Shown piece by piece: positions 9,559 to 22,851 of a DNA stretch of 25,416 bases. This stretch comes from a virus, in the IMG/VR virus record IMGVR_UViG_3300032240_000522, positions 1 through 25,416 of that record. One strand, given 5' to 3'. The translations under genes were made by a program, and so were the position numbers. Positions within the stretch are counted from its first letter, which is position 1. Each line of letters starts with the position of its first letter. Below the pieces are notes generated by a model. That model made no database searches and was not told where the DNA came from. It worked only from the letters and a program-made list of their open reading frames with translations.

Positions 9559-10863
9559 ATGGTTGAAGTTTTGGTAAGAAAAAAGATTGCTTCAGAAGAA
9601 GTTCTTGGAACTTTTGTTAGTAATAATTATTACGATCGTGTCATTGAAGATGATTGTGATCTTTATGCGGAGTCAATTGATGGCACTCTTACTGAAGATA
9701 ATATTATTTTCAAGTTTCGTAAAAACACATTTACAAAAGAAGAGTGCGATGCAGCATATGCTGGTTTGAGAGAAGCAGCAACAGAGTCACAAAATCGTGG
9801 TATGGCTGCTGGTCCTCGTGGCGATCAGCTAGGTCAGGAAGGACGTGGTAATCGCGATTGGGTTACACCAGAACAAATTGAAATTCTTTCTTTTCTTGCC
9901 CGACCTCTCAATACATTTGATGATGGCACTACTGTTGAATCTATCCGTGAAAGTCACAAAGGACCATCAAAAGAAGAAACACGTGGACAGGTTTGGCTTC
10001 GTTCAGAGGTAACTAAGCTTTATCCTGAATATCATGGCTGGTTTGAAAAGTGGCTTTCTAACGCTGTGAAAATGCCTCGTGAGCAACAAATTCATGACGC
10101 TGGTTTTATTGTTAAAAATTACATTTCAGATACAAATTATGCCCAGTCTGTGATGTCTGGTATTGCTGGGTATTTCGATCGTTATCCTCGTATCCCACAT
10201 GGGCGTGCTTGTGCATATAACGAAAAGAATCCAGAAAAGTTTGCTCTTTCATATCCTTATCTTCATAAGCTTAATGATCAATTTCGCGAACTGATTCCTA
10301 ATAGATGGAAAACACAAAATGAACAAGCCAACAGACTTGACGATAGATTCCGTATCGATGGCACTGTGTTCACTACTCTTACTGTCAATCACAATTGGCG
10401 GACAGCCTGTCACCGCGATGCTGGGGATCTCACTACTGGCTTTAGCAATATATGCGGCATTACTGGCCAAGAGGGTAAAGGCTGGAGGGGTGGTCAGTTT
10501 ATTCTCCCTGAGTATCGTATTGCAATTAATCTCCAGCCTGGTGATATGTTACTCGTTAATAATCATGAAGGGATTCACGGCAACGACGAGCTTATCGGTG
10601 ATGAAAATGATCGCATGACTATTGTTGCCTACTTCCGTGAAAAAATGGTTGATCTTAAGTCTTGGGATTACGAAAATCTTCGCAAACAATATGTTGAAGA
10701 GCGTCGCCAAAATAAAGATCATAAATTCCACCGTCCTCTTTGGAATGGTGTTTCACCAGGAATGTGGGAAGACCAAGAGTGGTTTGACTATATGAAAGAT
10801 CATAACATGCCAGATCCGTATGCACAAAAAGTTGCAGCAAGTCTTGAGGATTTCTTCTCTTAA
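9559..10863 (+). CDS. TET/JBP-like 2-oxoglutarate/Fe(II) dioxygenase
   Basis: 434 residues. The core is at ~260-365: VNHNWRTACHRDAGDL with H285 and D287, the strand WRGGQFILPEYRIAINLQPGDMLLVNN (310-335), distal H340 in HGN, and R352 in RMTIVAYF as the likely 2-oxoglutarate Arg. The HRDAGD plus GG-x-x-x-LP-x-Y layout is that of TET/JBP enzymes, which oxidise the methyl group of thymine or 5-methylcytosine in DNA. N- and C-terminal regions (1-200, 365-434) are not assigned. It heads the modification cluster, has its own promoter, and joins the next gene by TAATG. Thymine is the likelier target given the neighbours; that is inference. Confidence 0.85.
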   Translation: MVEVLVRKKIASEEVLGTFVSNNYYDRVIEDDCDLYAESIDGTLTEDNIIFKFRKNTFTKEECDAAYAGLREAATESQNRGMAAGPRGDQLGQEGRGNRDWVTPEQIEILSFLARPLNTFDDGTTVESIRESHKGPSKEETRGQVWLRSEVTKLYPEYHGWFEKWLSNAVKMPREQQIHDAGFIVKNYISDTNYAQSVMSGIAGYFDRYPRIPHGRACAYNEKNPEKFALSYPYLHKLNDQFRELIPNRWKTQNEQANRLDDRFRIDGTVFTTLTVNHNWRTACHRDAGDLTTGFSNICGITGQEGKGWRGGQFILPEYRIAINLQPGDMLLVNNHEGIHGNDELIGDENDRMTIVAYFREKMVDLKSWDYENLRKQYVEERRQNKDHKFHRPLWNGVSPGMWEDQEWFDYMKDHNMPDPYAQKVAASLEDFFS

Positions 10864-11549
10864 TGTGTGGTGTTCTTGGCATTGCCATTAGAAACTTTTC
10901 AGAGAAAGATCACGATTTAGTTCGTGGTCTTTTCATTCAATCTATGATCCGTGGTAAACATGCGACTGGTGTTTCGTATGTGAAAAATGGTCGTGTAAAT
11001 ACAATTAAAGAACCAACACCTGCTAATGAGTTCATTATGAAGCAGGATCTAAACGAATGGAGAAATGAAGATGGAAATCTCTACTGTATTGGGCACATTA
11101 GATATTCAACTTCTGATCTGCGTTATAATCAGCCTATGTCTAGCGATAAACTATCTATTGCCCATAATGGTGTCATATCTCAAGAACCACCTGAAACTTG
11201 GGAAGACAAATATAAACTCAGAACAGAAACCTCAAACGACTCAGAGCTTGTTCTGCGAGCGATGGAAGAAAATGTGAATCCTCTTCAACATTTTGAACCT
11301 GCTTCTATGGCAGTTTGTGCTTTGTACAATGATAAAAGAATTGTAGCTTTTCGAAATGCAGAACGACCATTATATTATGCTTATGATGTAAATCATATTG
11401 TATTTACTTCAACTGAAGATATTGCCAAAAGATCTAACTTGACTAATATTCAAAAAACTAGTATGCTTACTATGTATACTGTTGAACATTTCCAAATGAA
11501 CGCTGTTCATGATATTTTAAGAAATTCCGACGCAAAGGATTTGCAATGA
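10863..11549 (+). CDS. Class II glutamine amidotransferase
   Basis: 228 residues. N-terminal nucleophile hydrolase of the GATase-6/7 type: catalytic Cys2 in MCGVLG, then GKHATGVSYV, IGHIRYST (~78-85), SIAHNGVI (~96-103) and NDSELVL (~121-127). These domains release ammonia from glutamine and hand it to a synthase domain; here no synthase is fused, so a separate partner, most likely the amidoligase next door, would use it. It is coupled by TAATG to the TET/JBP-like gene and by ATGA to the amidoligase. Confidence 0.9.
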   Translation: MCGVLGIAIRNFSEKDHDLVRGLFIQSMIRGKHATGVSYVKNGRVNTIKEPTPANEFIMKQDLNEWRNEDGNLYCIGHIRYSTSDLRYNQPMSSDKLSIAHNGVISQEPPETWEDKYKLRTETSNDSELVLRAMEENVNPLQHFEPASMAVCALYNDKRIVAFRNAERPLYYAYDVNHIVFTSTEDIAKRSNLTNIQKTSMLTMYTVEHFQMNAVHDILRNSDAKDLQ

Positions 11550-12466
11550 ACAAATATGATAGAAGTACATTCACCTATGGTTTTGAAATCGAGTGGGGTG
11601 ACATTGATCGTAATATGTCAATCCCTCCAGAACTTGGAGCTTGGGAATTTTGTGAGACAGATATTATCAATTTGCGCGAACCTTATCGTGGTCTTGGATC
11701 AGACCCAAAAGGTGTGAATCCTCCTGTTGGTGGTGAAATTAACACCAAGCCAACAAAAACTTGGCAGGAACAAGTTGATAATATCATGAAGCTTCATGAC
11801 ATGTTTGTTGAACATGGAACACCTCCTACTGCTGGTTGTGTTAATCATGGTCACCTTCATATTCATGTTCCAGGATTGACAGAAGATATTGAAGCTCTAA
11901 AACGTCTTTCGCTTTATCTTCGTGACAATCAGCACATGACTATTGATAGTTGTTATCAATTTAGAATTTATCCTAACATGGAAATGACAAAAACTGCTAA
12001 GACATATCTTAAGCATGATGGTGGGCGTATTATGCCTGATTGGCTAGGCACAAACCTAGGAACAGTTCCTGTTGATTTTGATGATTGGATCCGTGTGCAT
12101 TGTTGTGGTAAAGATACTAAGACGCAGTCTCGTCCTTTCAGGTATGGTATTCATAGCTATGCTTTGAAAAATTCAAAAACAATCGAGTTTCGTTGTTTTC
12201 GTAGCTCAATTGATCGTTGCGAAATTGAAGATTGTTTCAAGTTTGCAACTGAATGGATTGATGCAGCATTGAACAATGGTCCTGACGTGCAAGAAATTTT
12301 GCTAGCTAACGATTATAAGTTCCCTCCTTTTGAATACGATCATGAAATGTATCTTGGTTGGGAAAAAACCAAACATGAACGTACTGATCGTAACCTTGAT
12401 GATGAAACAGCCGAGAAGCTTGGTCTTAACAAGCTTGGCAAGTCTCGTAAATTTCTTTCAGTATGA
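11546..12466 (+). CDS. Amidoligase (glutamine-synthetase/GCS-like COOH-NH2 ligase)
   Basis: 306 residues. Shows the pattern of the phage amidoligase family: FTYGFEIEWGD at the start, VGGEINTKPTKTW (~61-73), CVNHGHLHIHVPGL (~97-110), then RYGIHSYALKNSKTIEFRCF (~199-218). The acidic and His positions in FEIE, GGE and HLHIH are the metal/ATP ligands of this fold. Such enzymes join a carboxylate to an amine using ATP. Placed between a glutamine amidotransferase and an acetyltransferase, it most likely amidates or conjugates an intermediate or the modified base. The actual substrate is unknown. Confidence 0.8.
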   Translation: MNKYDRSTFTYGFEIEWGDIDRNMSIPPELGAWEFCETDIINLREPYRGLGSDPKGVNPPVGGEINTKPTKTWQEQVDNIMKLHDMFVEHGTPPTAGCVNHGHLHIHVPGLTEDIEALKRLSLYLRDNQHMTIDSCYQFRIYPNMEMTKTAKTYLKHDGGRIMPDWLGTNLGTVPVDFDDWIRVHCCGKDTKTQSRPFRYGIHSYALKNSKTIEFRCFRSSIDRCEIEDCFKFATEWIDAALNNGPDVQEILLANDYKFPPFEYDHEMYLGWEKTKHERTDRNLDDETAEKLGLNKLGKSRKFLSV

Positions 12467-13116
12467 TCTATAAAACGCTTGACAAAACCGAATATTTAAG
12501 CTATCATAATACCCTGGTTGGGAAAGACAAGAAGTTTTCCAAAGTAGCCATGGGAATGTGGAACTTTATGAAAGCTTGGGAAAAATGGCCACCCAGAGTT
12601 TTAGAGGAAAACGGTGAGATACTTTCCGTTTGCTTCATGAAACTTTCTAATCAAGCGAAGACAAAAGTACTTTTTATTTCTAATATCTTTACTCCGACTC
12701 CTGGTCGTGGTAAAGGTTCTGCTAGAGAAATGTTACATCGTAACATTCTTGAGGCGGTTGAATTGGGAGCCAGAACTATTCGGTTAGACTGTAACCGTGC
12801 AGCTCTTGGTTTCTATGATAAACTTGGAATGACATATTGGGGAACCACTATTAGTCATTCTATGTTCTGTGATTTACCTATTAACAGCAAAGGAGTCGAA
12901 TGCTTTAACACAACAAAAAACATGTCTGCAGTAGAAATCTTTAATGCATATAGCCCAGAACTCAAAGCCGCAAAGTTAAAGTGGATATCTAAAAAAGTCA
13001 AGAAACATGAAAAGTATGACTTTGGACATCCATCGCGTTACAATGAGTTTATGTCGCTGCAAGTTTTCAAAACACTAGAACCAAACGAGAAGGATCTCAA
13101 CAATGTTAAACTTTGA
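12463..13116 (+). CDS. GNAT-family N-acetyltransferase
   Basis: 217 residues. Acetyl-CoA-binding motif A is visible as ISNIFTPTPGRGKGSAREML (~73-92), with the R-x-x-G-x-G/A loop GRGKGSA, followed by AVELGARTIRLDCNRAALGFYDKLGMTYWG, the motif B region with the classic FYDKLGM. N- and C-terminal extensions are unassigned. In this cluster it could acylate an amine placed on the modified base. Coupled by ATGA to the amidoligase; it overlaps the next gene by 14 bases. Confidence 0.85.
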   Translation: MIYKTLDKTEYLSYHNTLVGKDKKFSKVAMGMWNFMKAWEKWPPRVLEENGEILSVCFMKLSNQAKTKVLFISNIFTPTPGRGKGSAREMLHRNILEAVELGARTIRLDCNRAALGFYDKLGMTYWGTTISHSMFCDLPINSKGVECFNTTKNMSAVEIFNAYSPELKAAKLKWISKKVKKHEKYDFGHPSRYNEFMSLQVFKTLEPNEKDLNNVKL

Positions 13117-14548
13117 ACCCAATAACTGGTACGTATACATCATCAATAACAATCGCACTAACTGGCTCTATGTTGGTTTGCATAATCAACAGACAAAGGC
13201 ATACACTCATTCTTCTAGTAGTGTAATGCTTCAGGATGCTATTGATAAGGGTGAAACTTCTGATTATATTGTTTGGAAAGGAACAAATAAGGAAAAGGCT
13301 CATGCACTTGAGACTTATTTGATTAACCTTGCCAAGGACAATGGTTATAACGTCTACAACATGAATAGTGGTGGTGGTTATAAGGGTGGTGCTCGTCAAA
13401 ATATTTTGACACCTGAAGATTACAACATTGGTGAAAACATTATTCTGCATAAAGTTTTCCCAAAATCTATTGATACTGATGATGAGGTTGAGGTGAATGA
13501 ACGCCTTCAAAATCTGGCGCGAGAAGTTCGTGATCTCGTTGCAGATGTAACAGATGGTAATCATAATCCTCATTACCTTGTTTATGAGCCTATCGATAAG
13601 ATCATTGATTTGCCATTTTTGCAAATTCGTATCAATGCTGTCGATAGAGATAATGTTGACCGTGTTATTGAGTCCATGGACATGGATATTAAGAAGGCAG
13701 AACGTCTAGTTGAGGCTGTTTCTATCGTTCGTTTCAAGAGCGGTCGTCTTCTTCGTGTTGATGGCACAACTACAGTTTATGCTATCAAGGAGTTAAATAA
13801 GTGGAAAACAGTTCCAGTTGTTTACCTTGATTCTGAATTGTTTAACGACAATGAAACATATATGGAAGTTTATGCAACATTGCGTAATCGTCCAGAAAAG
13901 CATAAGGGCGCGAACGATCCTAAGAAAGAACTGAAAGCTCGTATTCGCAACTTCCATAATGCAAATCCTGATCTTTTCGCGCGAAGCCCCGAAGATTTCG
14001 GTAAGAAGTTTATGGCTCTTTTCAAGGGGTCGTATTCTGAGCGTTCTATGCAATCAAATTTGAATGTTTATATCAAGAACATCAATGATCGAAATAGTCG
14101 TGGTGATAATTGGTTAGACTATAACATTGATGAAGGTAAACTTCTTGATTGGATTTCATACAAAGTACGTTTGATGTTTGAGCGTTCTGAATGTACTCGT
14201 ATCGCTGTATCTGCTCTCGAGCGCGAGGGCGTTGCTAACCCAATGAATTATTTTGGTAATGGCCCCAGCGGTAAAACTACTTCAGTAATTCTTGCGCATC
14301 ACACTTCACCTGCTACTGAAGATCGAGAAAATTATCACTTCGAGCGTATGACAAATGCTCTCACTGAAGCTGGTTATTCTCTGGATAATACGAAGCAAAT
14401 GTATGGGTATACTCCTTTTGTCAGCAAAATTACTGGGAAGAAAATTTTCGTAGTTTTCCTTCCTTGTCGTGTTGATACAAAAGCGGGTATTGACGAGAAT
14501 TTAATTCTCAGTAAACTTTTTGATGAACAACATCTCATTGCAGCGTAA
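13103..14548 (+). CDS. GIY-YIG-like plus ParB-like two-domain protein
   Basis: 481 residues. The N-terminal ~95 residues read as a GIY-YIG-type fold: NNWYVYIINN (~7-16), WLYVGLHN (~21-28), a helix with AHALETYLINL and YNVYNMNSGGG. After a linker, ~170-260 looks ParB/sulfiredoxin-like: INAVDRDNVDRVIESM, LLRVDGTTTVYAIKEL and KTVPVVYLD, the usual strand-DGxxRxxA-helix order but with TT in place of the basic residue. The remainder (NRPEKHKGANDPKKELKARI onward) is unassigned. ParB-like proteins accompany several predicted phage base-modification operons, so DNA binding or recognition of modification sites is plausible. Confidence 0.65.
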   Translation: MLNFEPNNWYVYIINNNRTNWLYVGLHNQQTKAYTHSSSSVMLQDAIDKGETSDYIVWKGTNKEKAHALETYLINLAKDNGYNVYNMNSGGGYKGGARQNILTPEDYNIGENIILHKVFPKSIDTDDEVEVNERLQNLAREVRDLVADVTDGNHNPHYLVYEPIDKIIDLPFLQIRINAVDRDNVDRVIESMDMDIKKAERLVEAVSIVRFKSGRLLRVDGTTTVYAIKELNKWKTVPVVYLDSELFNDNETYMEVYATLRNRPEKHKGANDPKKELKARIRNFHNANPDLFARSPEDFGKKFMALFKGSYSERSMQSNLNVYIKNINDRNSRGDNWLDYNIDEGKLLDWISYKVRLMFERSECTRIAVSALEREGVANPMNYFGNGPSGKTTSVILAHHTSPATEDRENYHFERMTNALTEAGYSLDNTKQMYGYTPFVSKITGKKIFVVFLPCRVDTKAGIDENLILSKLFDEQHLIAA

Positions 14549-15515
14549 GCAAGATTTCATAAACTGGTATCGCTGGTCGCTTTCCATCAAGGATTGCGAT
14601 CCAGCGATATTCATGACCAATTACTTGTTCCGTAGATTCGAGCATAACAGAGAACAAAAGCTCTGGATATCTTGGATCTACGGCACAACGTATTTCCTTC
14701 CAACAACATGGGTGATTTGGAATGAGTTTCCAGACTTCGAACTCGTCGGTGTTGAAAGACTCCGAGAATGGAATAATAACAATTACAAACGGCTCCGTTA
14801 CCAAACTGACACCAAATGGAATAAAGGTCATCTTCCAGCCCAGTTCGAGTCCTACAAGCAATGGGTTGGTGATAAAACTCAACGGGAAACATTTCAACCG
14901 TTCCTCACAGGATCTCCCACAGAAAACTTCGAACACCTCTGGTTAGAAGTAAAGACAAATTTCCATAAGTTTGGTCGCTATTCTACTTGGTTTTATTTAC
15001 AAACACTAAAACAGTGTTGTGATATGCCAATCGAACCAACCAACCTTATGCTTGATGATTATGATGGTTCAAGGTCTCACCGTAATGGTTTGCTCATGGC
15101 TTTAGGTCTTGATGAATGGTATGATCAAAAACTTACTGAAAGTCAGTTAAACTATATTGATGGTCAGGCATATTATATTTTGCAAGAAGTTAAACAGGAA
15201 TTTCCTAACACTGATTATTTTGATATGGAAACCTGTTTGTGTTCGTTTAAGAAACTATTTCGTGAACGTAATGGTAGATATCTCGGTTATTATCTTGACC
15301 GTCAAGCAGAAGAAATTTCTAAATGTCAAAAAGATGGTTGGGATGGTATTGACTGGCAACCACTTTGGGATTCTAGAGTAGAAACTCTAGAAAATAAACT
15401 GTTGACTAATCGTATAGATAATAGTAGAATGAGTCTATACTTAAAAAATAACATACTAGACGCTACTGGCTTATTTACCAAATCATATGATAACCTTGAG
15501 GAGTTTTTTAAATGA
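14520..15515 (+). CDS. Alpha-glutamyl/putrescinyl-thymine pyrophosphorylase-like protein (clade 2 type)
   Basis: 331 residues. RRFEHNREQKLWISWIYGTT (~38-57), VIWNEFPDFELVGVERLREW (~64-83), NNYKRLRYQTDTKWNKGHLP and FESYKQWVG are the wording I associate with aGPT-Pplase clade 2 proteins, predicted DNA-glycosylase-fold enzymes that displace the phosphate of 5-phosphomethyl-uracil with an amine. The second half carries YDGSRSHRNGLLMALGLDEW. It begins within the preceding gene (29-base overlap) and is followed by the matching P-loop kinase, overlapping by 4 bases: the expected partner for this chemistry. The start may instead be ATG 14523. Confidence 0.7.
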   Translation: MMNNISLQRKQDFINWYRWSLSIKDCDPAIFMTNYLFRRFEHNREQKLWISWIYGTTYFLPTTWVIWNEFPDFELVGVERLREWNNNNYKRLRYQTDTKWNKGHLPAQFESYKQWVGDKTQRETFQPFLTGSPTENFEHLWLEVKTNFHKFGRYSTWFYLQTLKQCCDMPIEPTNLMLDDYDGSRSHRNGLLMALGLDEWYDQKLTESQLNYIDGQAYYILQEVKQEFPNTDYFDMETCLCSFKKLFRERNGRYLGYYLDRQAEEISKCQKDGWDGIDWQPLWDSRVETLENKLLTNRIDNSRMSLYLKNNILDATGLFTKSYDNLEEFFK

Positions 15516-16060
15516 AAGTTATTGCGATTGGTGGCGAGCCTGGAGCAGGTAAGTCGACACTAATGCGTCGGCTGATTGAAGACATTAAAGCTGTTCCGAA
15601 ATATAATGAGTATAAGCTAGTTCCATATCTTCAGTATTTCGAAATTTTTATTCTTGGTAAATATGAAGAAGGTGAAGTATTTTCTGGCACCGATCGTATG
15701 AGTATGGCAGTTCAACCAGAAGCTATTAAGTTTCTTACGTACTTGCCCGAAAACGCTATTGTTCTTTTTGAAGGCGATAGACTTTTCACAGCATCATTTC
15801 TAGAACATTGTGTTGAGAAATACGATACAAAAATTGTTTATCTTAAAACTACTAAGGATATTCGTTCTGATAGGTATAAGGAACGAGGTAGTGAACAAAA
15901 TGAAACTTGGCTTCAAGGTCGCGAAACTAAGATCGCAAATATCCTAACAAATATGACATTGATGTTTAATATTGAAACGTTCGAGAATAATAATCTCGAT
16001 CAGCAACAGGCTGTATATAAAAGGATTTTAAGTTATGTTCAACAACCCGTTCACGAATAA
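15512..16060 (+). CDS. P-loop kinase, probable 5-hydroxymethyl-uracil DNA kinase
   Basis: 182 residues. Walker A GGEPGAGKST (7-16) at the very N-terminus; DRMSMAVQPEAIKFL (~61-75); IVLFEGDRLF (~83-92) as the Walker B-like acidic strand; and R-rich lid segment IRSDRYKERGSEQNETWLQGRETK. The protein is the size of a small nucleotide or DNA-hydroxymethyl kinase. Kinases of this kind phosphorylate 5-hydroxymethyl-uracil in phage DNA to set up nucleophilic substitution. The position directly after the aGPT-Pplase-like gene (ATGA overlap) and downstream of a TET/JBP-like enzyme supports that role over nucleotide kinase. Confidence 0.75.
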   Translation: MKVIAIGGEPGAGKSTLMRRLIEDIKAVPKYNEYKLVPYLQYFEIFILGKYEEGEVFSGTDRMSMAVQPEAIKFLTYLPENAIVLFEGDRLFTASFLEHCVEKYDTKIVYLKTTKDIRSDRYKERGSEQNETWLQGRETKIANILTNMTLMFNIETFENNNLDQQQAVYKRILSYVQQPVHE

Positions 16061-16391
16061 AACGCCATATCAAGTAAAGTATGGTTTGCCTCCAGAAGAT
16101 AATTTACCCACAGATATTTCATATAAATATGCTGAGGATCAGATTATTGCAGATTTCAAAACCTATATAGATAAGACATATGGTCAGCACTATAAGACCA
16201 GAAAAGATTCTATCGAATGTTTTGATGCGTGGATTGCTTTAGATGATGCTACTCCTACTTTCAGAAATACAGCCCTGAAATATCTTTGGCGTTACGGTAA
16301 GAAAAACGGTAGCAATAAAGACGACTTGATGAAAACTTTGCACTACACATTGATGTGTTTATATAACGACCACTATAAGGATGATAAATAA
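16035..16391 (+). CDS. DUF3310-like small protein
   Basis: 118 residues. The C-terminal ~60 residues (CFDAWIALDDATPTFRNTAL, then KYLWRYGKKNGSNKDDLMKT) follow the DUF3310/phage small kinase-associated pattern, in which NALKYxxRxGxK is followed by a helix of DLxKAxxYL. The N-terminal half (YQVKYGLPPEDNLP) is unassigned. It overlaps the kinase by 26 bases and the glycosyltransferase by TAATG. Function is not established for this family. Confidence 0.65.
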   Translation: MFNNPFTNKTPYQVKYGLPPEDNLPTDISYKYAEDQIIADFKTYIDKTYGQHYKTRKDSIECFDAWIALDDATPTFRNTALKYLWRYGKKNGSNKDDLMKTLHYTLMCLYNDHYKDDK

Positions 16392-17245
16392 TGGAAATTA
16401 ATATACCTATTGAGGATTTGAAGGCACGTAAACTTTTTATTGCCACACCTATGTATGGTGGTCAGTGCGCAGGAATGTTTGCTAAATCTATATCAGATCT
16501 TTCTGCACTTTGCGCAAATTATGGTATCCCCCTTCAAATGTATTTCTTGTTTAACGAGTCATTGATTACTCGTGCAAGAAACTATTGTTGTGATGAGTTT
16601 ATGCGTTCAGATGCATCTCATCTTATGTTTATTGACTCTGATATCGGTTTCAATCCTCAAGACATTATCGCAATGATGGCTCTTCAGGCTCAGGATGAAG
16701 AGAAGTATGAGATCATCGGTGGTCCTTACCCAAAGAAATGCATTAGCTGGGAAAAGATTAAGGCTGCAGTTGATAAGGGTGTTGCTGATGATGACGCTAA
16801 TGTTCTTGAAAAGTTCGTTGGTGACTTTGTGTTTAATCCAAAGGGTGGTCAGCAGAGTATTGCTATCGGTGAGCCTTGTGAAGTTCTAGAAATCGGTACT
16901 GGTTTCATGATGATCACAAAGAAGGCTATGCAAAGATTTGCTGATACATACCCTGAATATCTATACCGCCCTGATCATGTTCGCACTGAACATTTTGATG
17001 GCACACGTGAGATTATGATGTTCTTTCAGGCTGAAGTTGATCCTGAGACAAAGCGTTACCTTTCAGAAGATTATTGGTTTTGTCAAAAGGCTCAGAAGGC
17101 AAATATTAAAACTTGGCTCTGTCCTTGGATGAAATTGCAGCATGTTGGCACCTATATCTTTGGTGGCTCACTTGCTGATTTGGCATCAATTGGTGCTGCT
17201 GCAACTGCCGACCCTGGTAATTTGGGCGGCAAAAAGAAGAAGTGA
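16391..17245 (+). CDS. GT-A-fold glycosyltransferase
   Basis: 284 residues. KLFIATPMYGGQCAGMFAKS at the start, NESLITRARN (~55-64), and the DxD motif in HLMFIDSDIGFNPQDI (~76-91) are typical of family-2-like GT-A glycosyltransferases; EIGTGFMMITKKAM and SEDYWFCQKAQKANIKTWLC supply the acceptor-side acidic pair (ED). LQHVGTYIFGG follows. No signal or membrane segment, so it acts in the cytoplasm. It may glycosylate the modified base, since it is last in the cluster and coupled to it; an envelope or protein target cannot be excluded. Confidence 0.75.
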   Translation: MEINIPIEDLKARKLFIATPMYGGQCAGMFAKSISDLSALCANYGIPLQMYFLFNESLITRARNYCCDEFMRSDASHLMFIDSDIGFNPQDIIAMMALQAQDEEKYEIIGGPYPKKCISWEKIKAAVDKGVADDDANVLEKFVGDFVFNPKGGQQSIAIGEPCEVLEIGTGFMMITKKAMQRFADTYPEYLYRPDHVRTEHFDGTREIMMFFQAEVDPETKRYLSEDYWFCQKAQKANIKTWLCPWMKLQHVGTYIFGGSLADLASIGAAATADPGNLGGKKKK

Positions 17246-21787: not shown

Positions 21788-21864
21788 GGACTCCTAGCTC
21801 AGTTGGTTAGAGCATCGGACTTTTAATCCGTGGGTCCTGGGTTCGAGTCCCAGGGAGTTCACCA
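21788..21864 (+). tRNA. tRNA-Lys(TTT)
   Basis: Complete cloverleaf: acceptor GGACTCC/GGAGTTC, anticodon loop CTTTTAA, T-loop TTCGAGT, encoded CCA. First tRNA of the array. Confidence 0.97.
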
Positions 21865-21870
21865 TAATAC

Positions 21871-21945
21871 TGGCGTATAGCTCAGCGGTAGAGCACTGTC
21901 CTGATAAGACAGGGGTCAATGGATCGTAACCATTTACGCCAACCA
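21871..21945 (+). tRNA. tRNA-Ile(GAT) with unusual T-loop
   Basis: Acceptor TGGCGTA/TACGCCA, D-stem GCTC/GAGC, anticodon stem CTGTC/GACAG with loop CTGATAA, encoded CCA. The T-loop reads ATCGTAA instead of TTCRANN: positions 54 and 58 are exchanged (A54, T58). Confidence 0.88.
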
Positions 21946-21949
21946 GTAA

Positions 21950-22026
21950 CGGAGATTGGCTCAGTCTGGTAGAGCATTCGCTTTGGGAGCGAAGGGTCGC
22001 AAGTTCGAATCTTGCATCTCCGACCA
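21950..22026 (+). tRNA. tRNA-Pro(TGG)
   Basis: Acceptor CGGAGAT/ATCTCCG, anticodon stem TTCGC/GCGAA with loop TTTGGGA, T-loop TTCGAAT, encoded CCA. Confidence 0.97.
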
Positions 22027-22032
22027 ATCCCC

Positions 22033-22077
22033 GCCATCCCGATACGTCGGTTGGCACCTCCAGTTTCCGGACTGGAG
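22033..22077 (+). other. Two tandem hairpins between tRNA-Pro and tRNA-Ser
   Basis: Hairpin 1: CCGA-TACG-TCGG extended by GCCA/TGGC (22033-22055). Hairpin 2: CTCCAGT/ACTGGAG with a TTCCGG loop (22058-22077). No tRNA fits. They may be processing spacers or remnants of a lost tRNA. Confidence 0.5.
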
Positions 22078-22086
22078 ACTTATAAC

Positions 22087-22176
22087 GGAAGAATGGCCGA
22101 GTGGTTGATGGCTCTAGTCTTGAAAACTAGCATACCTGCAAGGGTATCGTGGGTTCGAATCCTACTTCTTCCGCCA
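22087..22176 (+). tRNA. tRNA-Ser(TGA)
   Basis: Acceptor GGAAGAA/TTCTTCC, anticodon stem CTAGT/ACTAG with loop CTTGAAA, long class II variable arm (ATACCTGCAAGGGTAT), T-loop TTCGAAT, encoded CCA; 90 bases. Confidence 0.97.
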
Positions 22177-22182
22177 TAATAT

Positions 22183-22260
22183 CCTCTGTTGGTGTAGCGG
22201 TCAAACATACCCGCCTTTCAAGCGTGGAGAGCATCGGTTCAAATCCGATACGGAGGACCA
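22183..22260 (+). tRNA. tRNA-Glu(TTC)
   Basis: Acceptor CCTCTGT/ACGGAGG, anticodon loop CTTTCAA, T-stem ATCGG/CCGAT with loop TTCAAAT, encoded CCA. The anticodon stem has one C-T mismatch. Confidence 0.9.
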
Positions 22261-22265
22261 AATAA

Positions 22266-22341
22266 GGACCATTAGCTCAGCTGGTAGAGCAGGAGACTCT
22301 TAATCTCTTTGTCGCAGGTTCGATCCCTGCATGGTTCACCA
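22266..22341 (+). tRNA. tRNA-Lys(CTT)
   Basis: Acceptor GGACCAT/ATGGTTC, anticodon stem GGAGA/TCTCT with loop CTCTTAA, T-loop TTCGATC, encoded CCA. Second lysine tRNA in the array. Confidence 0.96.
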
Positions 22342-22350
22342 AAATAATGC

Positions 22351-22379
22351 TTGACTTTTGGTACTAAATAAAGTATTAT
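22351..22379 (+). promoter_or_regulatory. Sigma70 promoter for the lipoprotein gene
   Basis: TTGACT (22351-22356), 17-base spacer, TATTAT (22374-22379), inside the tRNA array directly upstream of the lipoprotein gene. It also could feed the downstream tRNAs. Confidence 0.75.
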
Positions 22380-22407
22380 AGTAATACGATAAAGTTTGGA
22401 GGTTAAT

Positions 22408-22686
22408 ATGCATAAGATTCTAATCGCGGTTGTAGCTACTCTTTCTCTTGCTGGTTGTACTGCTAGAGAGCAGCAGATTTTGGCCGCTGGTACTGTCGGT
22501 GCTGTTGCTGGTGCAGTCATTGCTAATGAGGTTAATCAGCCTCGTCCAGTTTATGTTGAAGAACGTAGACCTGTATATTACGAGGAACGTCGTCCTGTTT
22601 ATGTAGTACCTCCTCGTCGGCCACAATGTTTCTCCACTTGGGAGAACACTCATCGTGGTATGGTAGAACGTAGAGTCTGCCGATAA
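22408..22686 (+). CDS. Small lipoprotein with tyrosine/proline repeats
   Basis: 92 residues from ATG 22408, which has TGGAGG at 22397-22402. Signal peptide MHKILIAVVATLSLAG with lipobox LAGC, so Cys17 would be lipidated. Next comes a glycine/alanine-rich segment GTVGAVAGAVIANEV (~28-42, glycine-zipper-like), then three RRPVY(V/Y)-type repeats with EE between them, and a C-terminal region with two Cys (PQCFSTW ... RRVCR). Probably anchored to the inner face of the outer membrane; possible roles are superinfection exclusion or envelope change, both inference. It has its own promoter. Confidence 0.82.
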   Translation: MHKILIAVVATLSLAGCTAREQQILAAGTVGAVAGAVIANEVNQPRPVYVEERRPVYYEERRPVYVVPPRRPQCFSTWENTHRGMVERRVCR

Positions 22687-22693
22687 AGTTTAT

Positions 22694-22770
22694 TCGCTTG
22701 AACCCGAATAGGTATCGGGACCTGACTGTTAATCAGGCCACTGTAGGTTCGAATCCTACCAAGCGAGCCA
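22694..22770 (+). tRNA. tRNA-Asn(GTT)
   Basis: Acceptor TCGCTTG/CAAGCGA, anticodon stem CCTGA/TCAGG with loop CTGTTAA, T-loop TTCGAAT, encoded CCA. Position 8 is A instead of the near-universal T, and the D-stem is CCCG/CGGG instead of GNNC-like. Confidence 0.93.
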
Positions 22771-22776
22771 AATATG

Positions 22777-22851
22777 CCCGATTAGCTCAGCGGTAGTAGC
22801 GTTTCCTTTACACGGAAAATGTCGGCGGTTCAATCCCGTCATCGGGTACCA
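22777..22851 (+). tRNA. tRNA-Val(TAC)
   Basis: Acceptor GCCCGAT/ATCGGGT, anticodon stem TTTCC/GGAAA with loop TTTACAC, T-loop TTCAATC, encoded CCA. The D-stem has only three clear pairs. Confidence 0.94.

Follow-up and report, generated by a model that had tools for sequence, protein, structure and literature searches.

The stretch analysed here (the window; 25,416 nucleotides of IMG/VR record IMGVR_UViG_3300032240_000522) is a piece of 25.4 kb from the genome of a T4-like phage that was sampled in the environment. This assignment had been made from the letters alone, and family models now recognise gp23, gp19, uvsY, uvsW, gp55 and gp47/46 on the left side of the window and gp45 on the right side, followed by 16 tRNA genes. 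Between a MazG-like gene (named by eye) and gp45 lies a run of co-oriented genes that overlap by 1-29 bases (Table 1). The original prediction singled out a TET/JBP-like dioxygenase, a P-loop kinase and an aGPT-Pplase-like protein in this overlapping run, and the open reading frame coordinates and Pfam families agree with it. It regarded these three as a complete set, but the genes for a glutaminase, a ligase, an acetyltransferase and a ParB-like protein lying between them had been left out, and the glutaminase, the glutamine synthetase (GS)-fold ligase and the GNAT protein between the dioxygenase and the transferase are part of the operon. Here, we argue that this operon probably serves to hypermodify a pyrimidine with an amine-type group in finished phage DNA.

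Table 1. The operon and the two genes to its right, with the family matches (E-values; bit scores and cut-offs where given) and residues by which each product was assigned.
Feature	Position	Strand	Basis
TET/JBP Fe(II)/2-oxoglutarate dioxygenase, 434 aa	9559..10863	+	PF12851 (Tet_JBP) 1e-18, 67.5 bits vs cut-off 34.9; H285-x-D287, H340, R352
Class-II glutamine amidotransferase (glutaminase) domain protein, 228 aa, Cys2 nucleophile	10863..11549	+	PF13522 5.7e-12, above cut-off
Amidoligase-like carboxylate-amine ligase, GS fold, 306 aa	11546..12466	+	Weak PF12224 in relatives; AlphaFold2 fold
GNAT acyltransferase, 217 aa	12463..13116	+	PF00583 3.6e-6, 27.7 bits vs cut-off 20.7
GIY-YIG / ParB-like accessory protein, 481 aa	13103..14548	+	PF01541 0.0032, below cut-off; ParB-like part by eye
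Amino acid:DNA transferase (ADDT), 331 aa	14520..15515	+	PF18724 1.2e-23, 84.5 bits vs cut-off 26.2; start ambiguous (TTG 14520 or ATG 14523)
P-loop kinase, 182 aa, GEPGAGKS Walker A	15512..16060	+	PF18751 (Ploopntkinase3) 2.1e-13, 50.7 bits vs cut-off 27; PHROG_800 5.8e-17
DUF3310-like protein, conserved right border of variable slot	16035..16391	+	PF11753 8.1e-5, 23.0 bits, below cut-off of 24
Glycosyltransferase-like protein	16391..17245	+	PHROG_1574 1.2e-58 (function unknown); PF03452 0.002, below cut-off

The first gene of the operon encodes a TET/JBP dioxygenase with the TET-type double-stranded beta-helix fold, for which sequence and structural model together predict a base-oxidising activity. 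Its iron ligands (H285, D287 and H340) and 2-oxoglutarate-binding arginine (R352) align with those of TET2 and are kept in 49/49 members of the window family, and the two histidines, the aspartate and the arginine are likewise present in 49/49 TETs of a second, Melnitz-type clade and in 4/4 TETs of named phages. The AlphaFold2 model (pLDDT 80.5, pTM 0.68) retrieves CcTet (9e-9), TET2 (3.4e-8) and NgTET1 (4.6e-8) with Foldseek, and in a second structure comparison the top 16 rows are all TET2, CMD1, CcTET or NgTET1 (Z 15.9-17.9; root-mean-square deviation, rmsd, 3.0-5.5; 215-292 residues aligned), with AlkB-type enzymes next (Z 14.1). Searches of viral contigs with the TETs of the phages Cr30 and S-CBWM1 returned self-matches to those phages and no others. 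Public labels of such proteins can be misleading, since TETs appear as 'SNF2 DNA repair protein' or near the PHROG 'queuine tRNA-ribosyltransferase'.

Profile searches place the dioxygenase in TET/JBP and the 14520-15515 protein in ADDT rather than in unrelated families. The ADDT family also includes M6 gp51 (1.4e-46) and a protein of the ViI-like phage SeSz-1. Six positions (N88, F137, G152, E237, C241 and W274) are common to M6 gp51, to the SeSz-1, Cr30 and Simon proteins and to those of two uncultured loci (L095, L102), and are invariant in 18 window-type and six other proteins. Sequence searches with the ADDT found no relative of solved structure. For the kinase, the proposed 5-hydroxymethyldeoxyuridine (5-hmdU) DNA kinase type holds in part. 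The protein falls into PHROG_800 together with M6 gp54 (2e-39), which we take to be the assayed 5-hmdU kinase of M6, but PF18748 HMUDK, which M6 gp54 matches (7.7e-18), is absent from the 22 families matched by the window kinase at E up to 0.05, the sister model PF18751 being matched instead. A profile of 17 window-family kinases alone finds M6 gp54 (E 4.6e-9 when five sequences are searched; hhalign probability of 96%). The M6, Saguaro, Cr30 and Melnitz kinases are themselves rows of a wider kinase alignment (A4), and of its matches those to Simon and SeSz-1 alone are independent. We thus regard the protein as a predicted hydroxymethyl-pyrimidine DNA kinase, in a sister family to HMUDK within one PHROG. 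The matches of the kinase in a defence library were weak and of Walker type. The PHROG_800 label 'terminase small subunit' is misleading, and 5hmU-type kinases carry it in public annotations. A kinase of the same family in the mycobacteriophage Saguaro (L138, 4230-4772) bears this label too; its neighbours are ParB, que genes, a queuine tRNA-ribosyltransferase-like gene and the terminase.

The distribution of these genes was followed in viral contigs, in which the ADDT query found 80 loci and the TET query 52, giving a total of 131 including the window. Since 78 of the 131 came from the ADDT search only, counts anchored on TET are the fairer ones. By our own profiles 96 loci besides that of the window carry a TET; with 27 incomplete loci dropped, 69 are complete to the right border and 41 of these are non-redundant. 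In these 41 loci kinase and ADDT occur together 33 times, both are missing eight times, and neither is ever found alone, which rules out a chance neighbourhood (Fisher tests on these counts ignore kinship, and some loci, e.g., L002 and L083, share one contig). The slot behind TET is never empty: it holds kinase and ADDT in 33 loci, a decorator that Pfam identifies as TET-Associated Glycosyltransferase (TAGT; u2, 6.3e-18) in six, and a gene called u22 in two, and TAGT never occurs with ADDT. The TET-anchored sample (52 loci, 22 incomplete ones dropped) gives 20 kinase-ADDT pairs, eight TAGT, two u22 and no empty slot among 30. The glycosyltransferase-like gene at 16391-17245 accompanies every cassette type. 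On a TET tree of 42 rows, 11 changes are required to account for the five cassette types (minimum possible 4; shuffles average 16.3), a count that is approximate as eight forks are open, and at least six changes of the largest cassette type are forced by well-supported branches. The 11 changes point to repeated exchange of decorators behind a retained TET. Two loci (L095, L098) match the window at 74-76% identity in the kinase and at only 31-32% in the ADDT, which indicates that the transferase was exchanged beside a retained kinase. This pattern fits a hydroxymethyl-pyrimidine that is made in DNA and handed to alternative decorators.

The decorator slot also holds two genes without a recognised family, u22 (L109:11302-12722, in a record of 141 kb) and u23 (L096:1356-2767). 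The u22 protein of L109 had no PDB, Pfam or PHROG match and resembles glycosyltransferases by eye only. A myo-inositol-1-phosphate synthase gene, present in Cr30 (L132:17293-18474) and in an uncultured phage (L102:4958-6082), adjoins TET and a classical ADDT in both, and an inositol-derived decoration is possible there.

No front end acting on the nucleotide pool was found in these phages. PF00303, which covers the dUMP/dCMP hydroxymethylases, and PF00145, the C5-methyltransferases, were found neither in the window (0/1 each), as had been noted before, nor in the 20 related records (0/20 each), six of which span 110-162 kb, none with a completeness estimate. The profiles performed as expected on controls: PF00303 was found in Cr30, SeSz-1 and M6 (3/7 records) and in Simon (1/3), and PF00145 in Melnitz (1/7). 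The C5-methyltransferase profile likewise found nothing in the 131 window-family loci, nor PF00145 in the four complete T4-like phages with a TET (Cr30, DLP_6, C48C1 and S-CBWM1); among these four, Cr30 alone has a PF00303 gene, and this scores like an ordinary thymidylate synthase (3.9e-113). In the Melnitz-type TET clade a C5-methyltransferase lies directly upstream of TET in 60 of the 61 loci whose upstream sequence extends to 1 kb or more, and a kinase of the window family is present in 19 of the 42 with enough downstream sequence. The kinase profile used in the survey includes a Melnitz row, and the window kinase alone also finds the Melnitz-type kinases (tblastn). ADDT, glutaminase, ligase, GNAT and TAGT are absent from all 71 Melnitz-type loci by our own profiles. 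TETs therefore occur in two settings, one coupled to a methyltransferase and one free of it, with kinase and ADDT or a glycosyltransferase. The Melnitz-type operon is probably a cytosine hypermodification system distinct from that of the window. Its gene set can be seen in Melnitz-3 (L137, 4010-8090) and in L140-L210, which combine C5-methyltransferase, TET, a gene for a 427-residue protein and kinase; the 427-residue Melnitz protein had no family match. The complete phages DLP_6 (L133) and S-CBWM1 (L135) have TET and TAGT and no match to PF00145, PF00303, ADDT or kinase, and they are predicted to glycosylate hydroxymethyluracil, which would give a base resembling base J.

The middle of the operon is tied to the transferase. 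Among the 41 non-redundant loci the glutaminase is present in all 29 with a window-type ADDT (580-656 bits) and in none of the 12 others, including the four with a classical ADDT (127-170 bits). The GNAT gene is found in 27/29 window-type loci and the ligase in 24/29, never without the glutaminase, which is kept in the five lacking the ligase. Three loci (L120, L127 and L129) have the reordered sequence glutaminase-GNAT-ADDT-TET-kinase, the same set except for the ligase. In the glutaminase, C2, R80, N102, G103 and D126, presumably catalytic or glutamine-site residues, are present in 52/52 sequences. The ligase sequence alone has no Pfam (up to E 1), PHROG or NCBIfam match and its family profile none in the PDB, so that its placement as a GS-fold carboxylate-amine ligase comes from its relatives and its predicted fold. 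Of 31 members of the ligase alignment 26 match PF12224 (Amidoligase_2) weakly, and the best relative reaches 3.8e-4 and 20.9 bits, short of the cut-off of 22. The AlphaFold2 model (pLDDT 91.9) has members of the GS/GCS superfamily as all 50 structural matches listed, e.g., the YbdK-type 1tt4 (Z 10.7, rmsd 4.3, 212 residues aligned), plant glutamate-cysteine ligase (Z 10.2) and GS (Z 10.0), and the best Foldseek match is at 2.3e-3. E14, E16, E64, H103, H105, E214 and R216, which we take to be functional residues, are invariant in 31 sequences and include acidic strands of the ExE and ExR type. The GIY-YIG/ParB-like gene is exchanged or absent in relatives and was detected by profile in 14 of the 29 non-redundant glutaminase-type loci. 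The ends of such proteins (window 13103-14548; L113:4169-5671; L114:2584-3921) look like nuclease domains that can be swapped, of the GIY-YIG type or (by eye) the HNH type, and the protein might cut DNA that lacks the modification.

Taken together, the gene content, the exclusive swaps, the TET fold and the missing hydroxymethylase support the earlier proposal of a hypermodification that is started by TET and completed by kinase and transferase, with T as a more likely base than 5-methylcytosine (5mC). In the pathway that we favour, TET would first act on DNA, hydroxylating the C5 methyl group of a base that is most likely thymine, to give 5-hydroxymethyluracil (5hmU). The P-loop kinase would then phosphorylate the hydroxymethyl group, and ADDT would replace the phosphate with a nitrogen nucleophile. 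Glutaminase, GS-fold ligase and GNAT would supply or cap this nitrogen via amide formation, giving a larger group that probably blocks restriction. With a glutaminase as partner, ammonia becomes an alternative to a free amino acid as nucleophile. This suggests, tentatively, a variant in which the window-type ADDT uses glutaminase-derived ammonia to convert 5hmU to 5-aminomethyluracil in DNA, after which ligase and GNAT acylate the amine, perhaps with an amino acid. The proposal stems from the strict pairing of the glutaminase with window-type and not with classical ADDTs, its persistence in the ligase-less loci and the high frequency of GNAT; the active site lends it no support, as no residue separates window-type from classical ADDTs (threshold 17/18 vs. 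5/6). Such a reaction may, on the same tentative footing, be a second and shorter way to aminomethyl-type DNA bases.

Several points weigh against a single amine-forming pathway on thymine. We know of no chemistry established for any member of the family. The window kinase is nearer to the Saguaro kinase than to M6 gp54, and the Saguaro kinase sits among 7-deazaguanine genes with no TET match. Furthermore, LUZ24-like Ab22 and CW02 carry glutaminase genes but neither TET nor ADDT, and no kinase match in them is credible (Ab22 has a single kinase-profile match, 7.5e-4, 13 bits); CW02 also carries an annotated amidoligase gene and ATP-grasp genes. These phages would be expected if TET, kinase and ADDT modify DNA while glutaminase, ligase and GNAT belong to a system of their own (peptide, metabolite or protein-tagging) that was inserted by coincidence. 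We consider this unlikely, since the glutaminase follows the window-type ADDT so strictly even in the reordered loci, and since in Simon a homologue of the ligase sits between ADDT and kinase.

The other points concern the base. Asp290, an aspartate in 49/49 family members, aligns with NgTET1 Asp234, CMD1 Asp350 and TET2 Asn1387, residues described as binding N4 of 5mC (PMC7854593; PMC11040006). The authors of the CMD1 paper state that O4 of thymine cannot favourably pair with that aspartate (PMC7854593), and CMD1 is described as transferring no glyceryl to T (PMC7854593; PMC11040006). The equivalent aspartate is also present in 49/49 methyltransferase-coupled TETs, and the match to an N4-contacting residue favours cytosine. 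R360 aligns with an arginine of CcTet and CMD1 that contacts 5mC. This position is Arg in 49/49 window-family TETs and in 4/4 named ones, and Asp in 46/49 or Gly in 3/49 of the methyltransferase-paired ones; as a marker for thymine it was rejected because the 5mC enzymes CcTet and CMD1 share the arginine, which contacts O2 (PMC11040006; PMC7854593). The same pathway might accordingly run on cytosine, with TET oxidising 5mC made by the host or by an unrecognised phage methylase and kinase and ADDT acting on 5-hydroxymethylcytosine, an option that gains from the window-family kinases in the Melnitz-type, methyltransferase-paired operons. Its substrate could still come from C5 methylation by the host or from a C5-methylase outside PF00145. 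Nevertheless, we also consider it unlikely, given that C5-methyltransferases were found in none of the window-family loci, the related records and the complete T4-like TET phages, and that ADDT never occurs in Melnitz-type loci. Because there is no C5-methyltransferase and the relatives of ADDT belong to thymidine-modifying phages, thymine is the most likely substrate, and we hold this with reasonable though not high confidence. It is very improbable that TET instead targets marks on host or competitor DNA and builds no modified base, with kinase and ADDT as unrelated neighbours: the operon does hold a ParB-like protein whose N-terminus resembles a nuclease, and TET enzymes are generally known to be able to serve in demethylation, but kinase and ADDT strictly alternate with TAGT or u22 after TET and the clade is devoid of methyltransferases.

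The operon shares features with several known systems. M6 and ViI hypermodify thymidine via a 5-hmdU kinase route (PMC6449724). The window shares the ADDT family with M6 gp51 and SeSz-1 and the kinase PHROG with M6 gp54, but has TET/JBP in place of the PF00303 hydroxymethylase of the M6, ViI and phiW-14 pathways. Its tailoring enzymes are a glutaminase, a GS-fold ligase and a GNAT protein, whereas those of M6, ViI and phiW-14 are reportedly pyridoxal phosphate (PLP) or radical-SAM enzymes. Simon (PQ683277) ties the ligase independently to a classical 5hmU cluster: within about 8 kb it has a PF00303 gene, ADDT, a DAO-type FAD oxidase, a homologue of the ligase (25% identity to that of the window, 1.5e-19; 40% to that of L014), an HMUDK-type kinase and HMUDK_hel. 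Like the window, it keeps ADDT, a kinase (HMUDK-type in Simon) and the homologous GS-fold ligase a few kb apart, and it differs in its PF00303 start, its FAD oxidase, the lack of TET and the lack of a detectable glutaminase in the 14.9 kb stretch searched. In Simon, 5-aminomethyluracil could also be reached by way of an amino-acid adduct on which the FAD oxidase acts. Wen et al. 2024 name 5-NmdU and N-alpha-GlyT as DNA hypermodifications in the title of their paper.

TET-initiated systems have also been proposed before, and Iyer et al. 2013 reportedly predicted systems of TET, transferase and kinase. Burke et al. 2021 are said to have described phage 5mC TET and TET-associated glycosyltransferase systems; there, too, TET/JBP makes the hydroxymethyl handle, and TAGT is found in sister loci of the window, but the window itself lacks a C5-methyltransferase and has kinase and ADDT in place of the glycosyltransferase. 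In the Rhodococcus phage Tonitrus, ParB, TET/JBP, aGPT-Pplase2 and a 5-hmU kinase are annotated as a predicted system, with no glutaminase or ligase reported in the available text (PMC11955845). Tonitrus and the Caulobacter phage Cr30 thus share with the window the TET, the ADDT/aGPT-type transferase and the P-loop kinase. Cr30 differs in having a myo-inositol-1-phosphate synthase gene and its own thymidylate synthase, and in the absence of a glutaminase or ligase from the 25 kb stretch searched. The three-gene core of TET, transferase and kinase is therefore already annotated in print, while the glutaminase-ligase-GNAT tailoring set appears to be new. Tailoring of a base in phage DNA by an ATP-dependent amide ligase is known from CmoX/CmoY, where a Cx-SAM enzyme adds a carboxylate handle to give carboxymethylcytosine, where some CmoY relatives have a glutamine-hydrolysing domain, and where ParBc genes are neighbours (PMC12783734). 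Its ligase is described as asparagine-synthetase-like (PMC12783734), in contrast to the GS fold of the window ligase. A survey of jumbo phages found no TET/JBP there, as far as its available text goes (PMC7824862). Within a limited check of the open-licence literature (titles and abstract openings) no glutaminase/ligase-tailored TET pathway was described, and oxidation of thymine in DNA followed by attachment of an amine is a route that has been predicted, with no experimental demonstration found in that check.

If the pathway is correct, phages would possess a thymine dioxygenase that acts on finished DNA, much as JBP does when trypanosomatids make base J, and one TET front end would serve several decorators, both amines and sugars. 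Hypermodification would thereby be uncoupled from the nucleotide pool and the replication machinery, and the eukaryotic chemistry of base J would be linked to phages. Comparison of Simon with window-type loci shows TET in the place of a hydroxymethylase before the same back end of kinase, ADDT and ligase. DNA bases that bear amines or amides are useful handles for enzymatic labelling. Outside the operon, the 16 tRNA genes to the right of gp45 have differing specificities and are packed into 3.1 kb (21788-24883).

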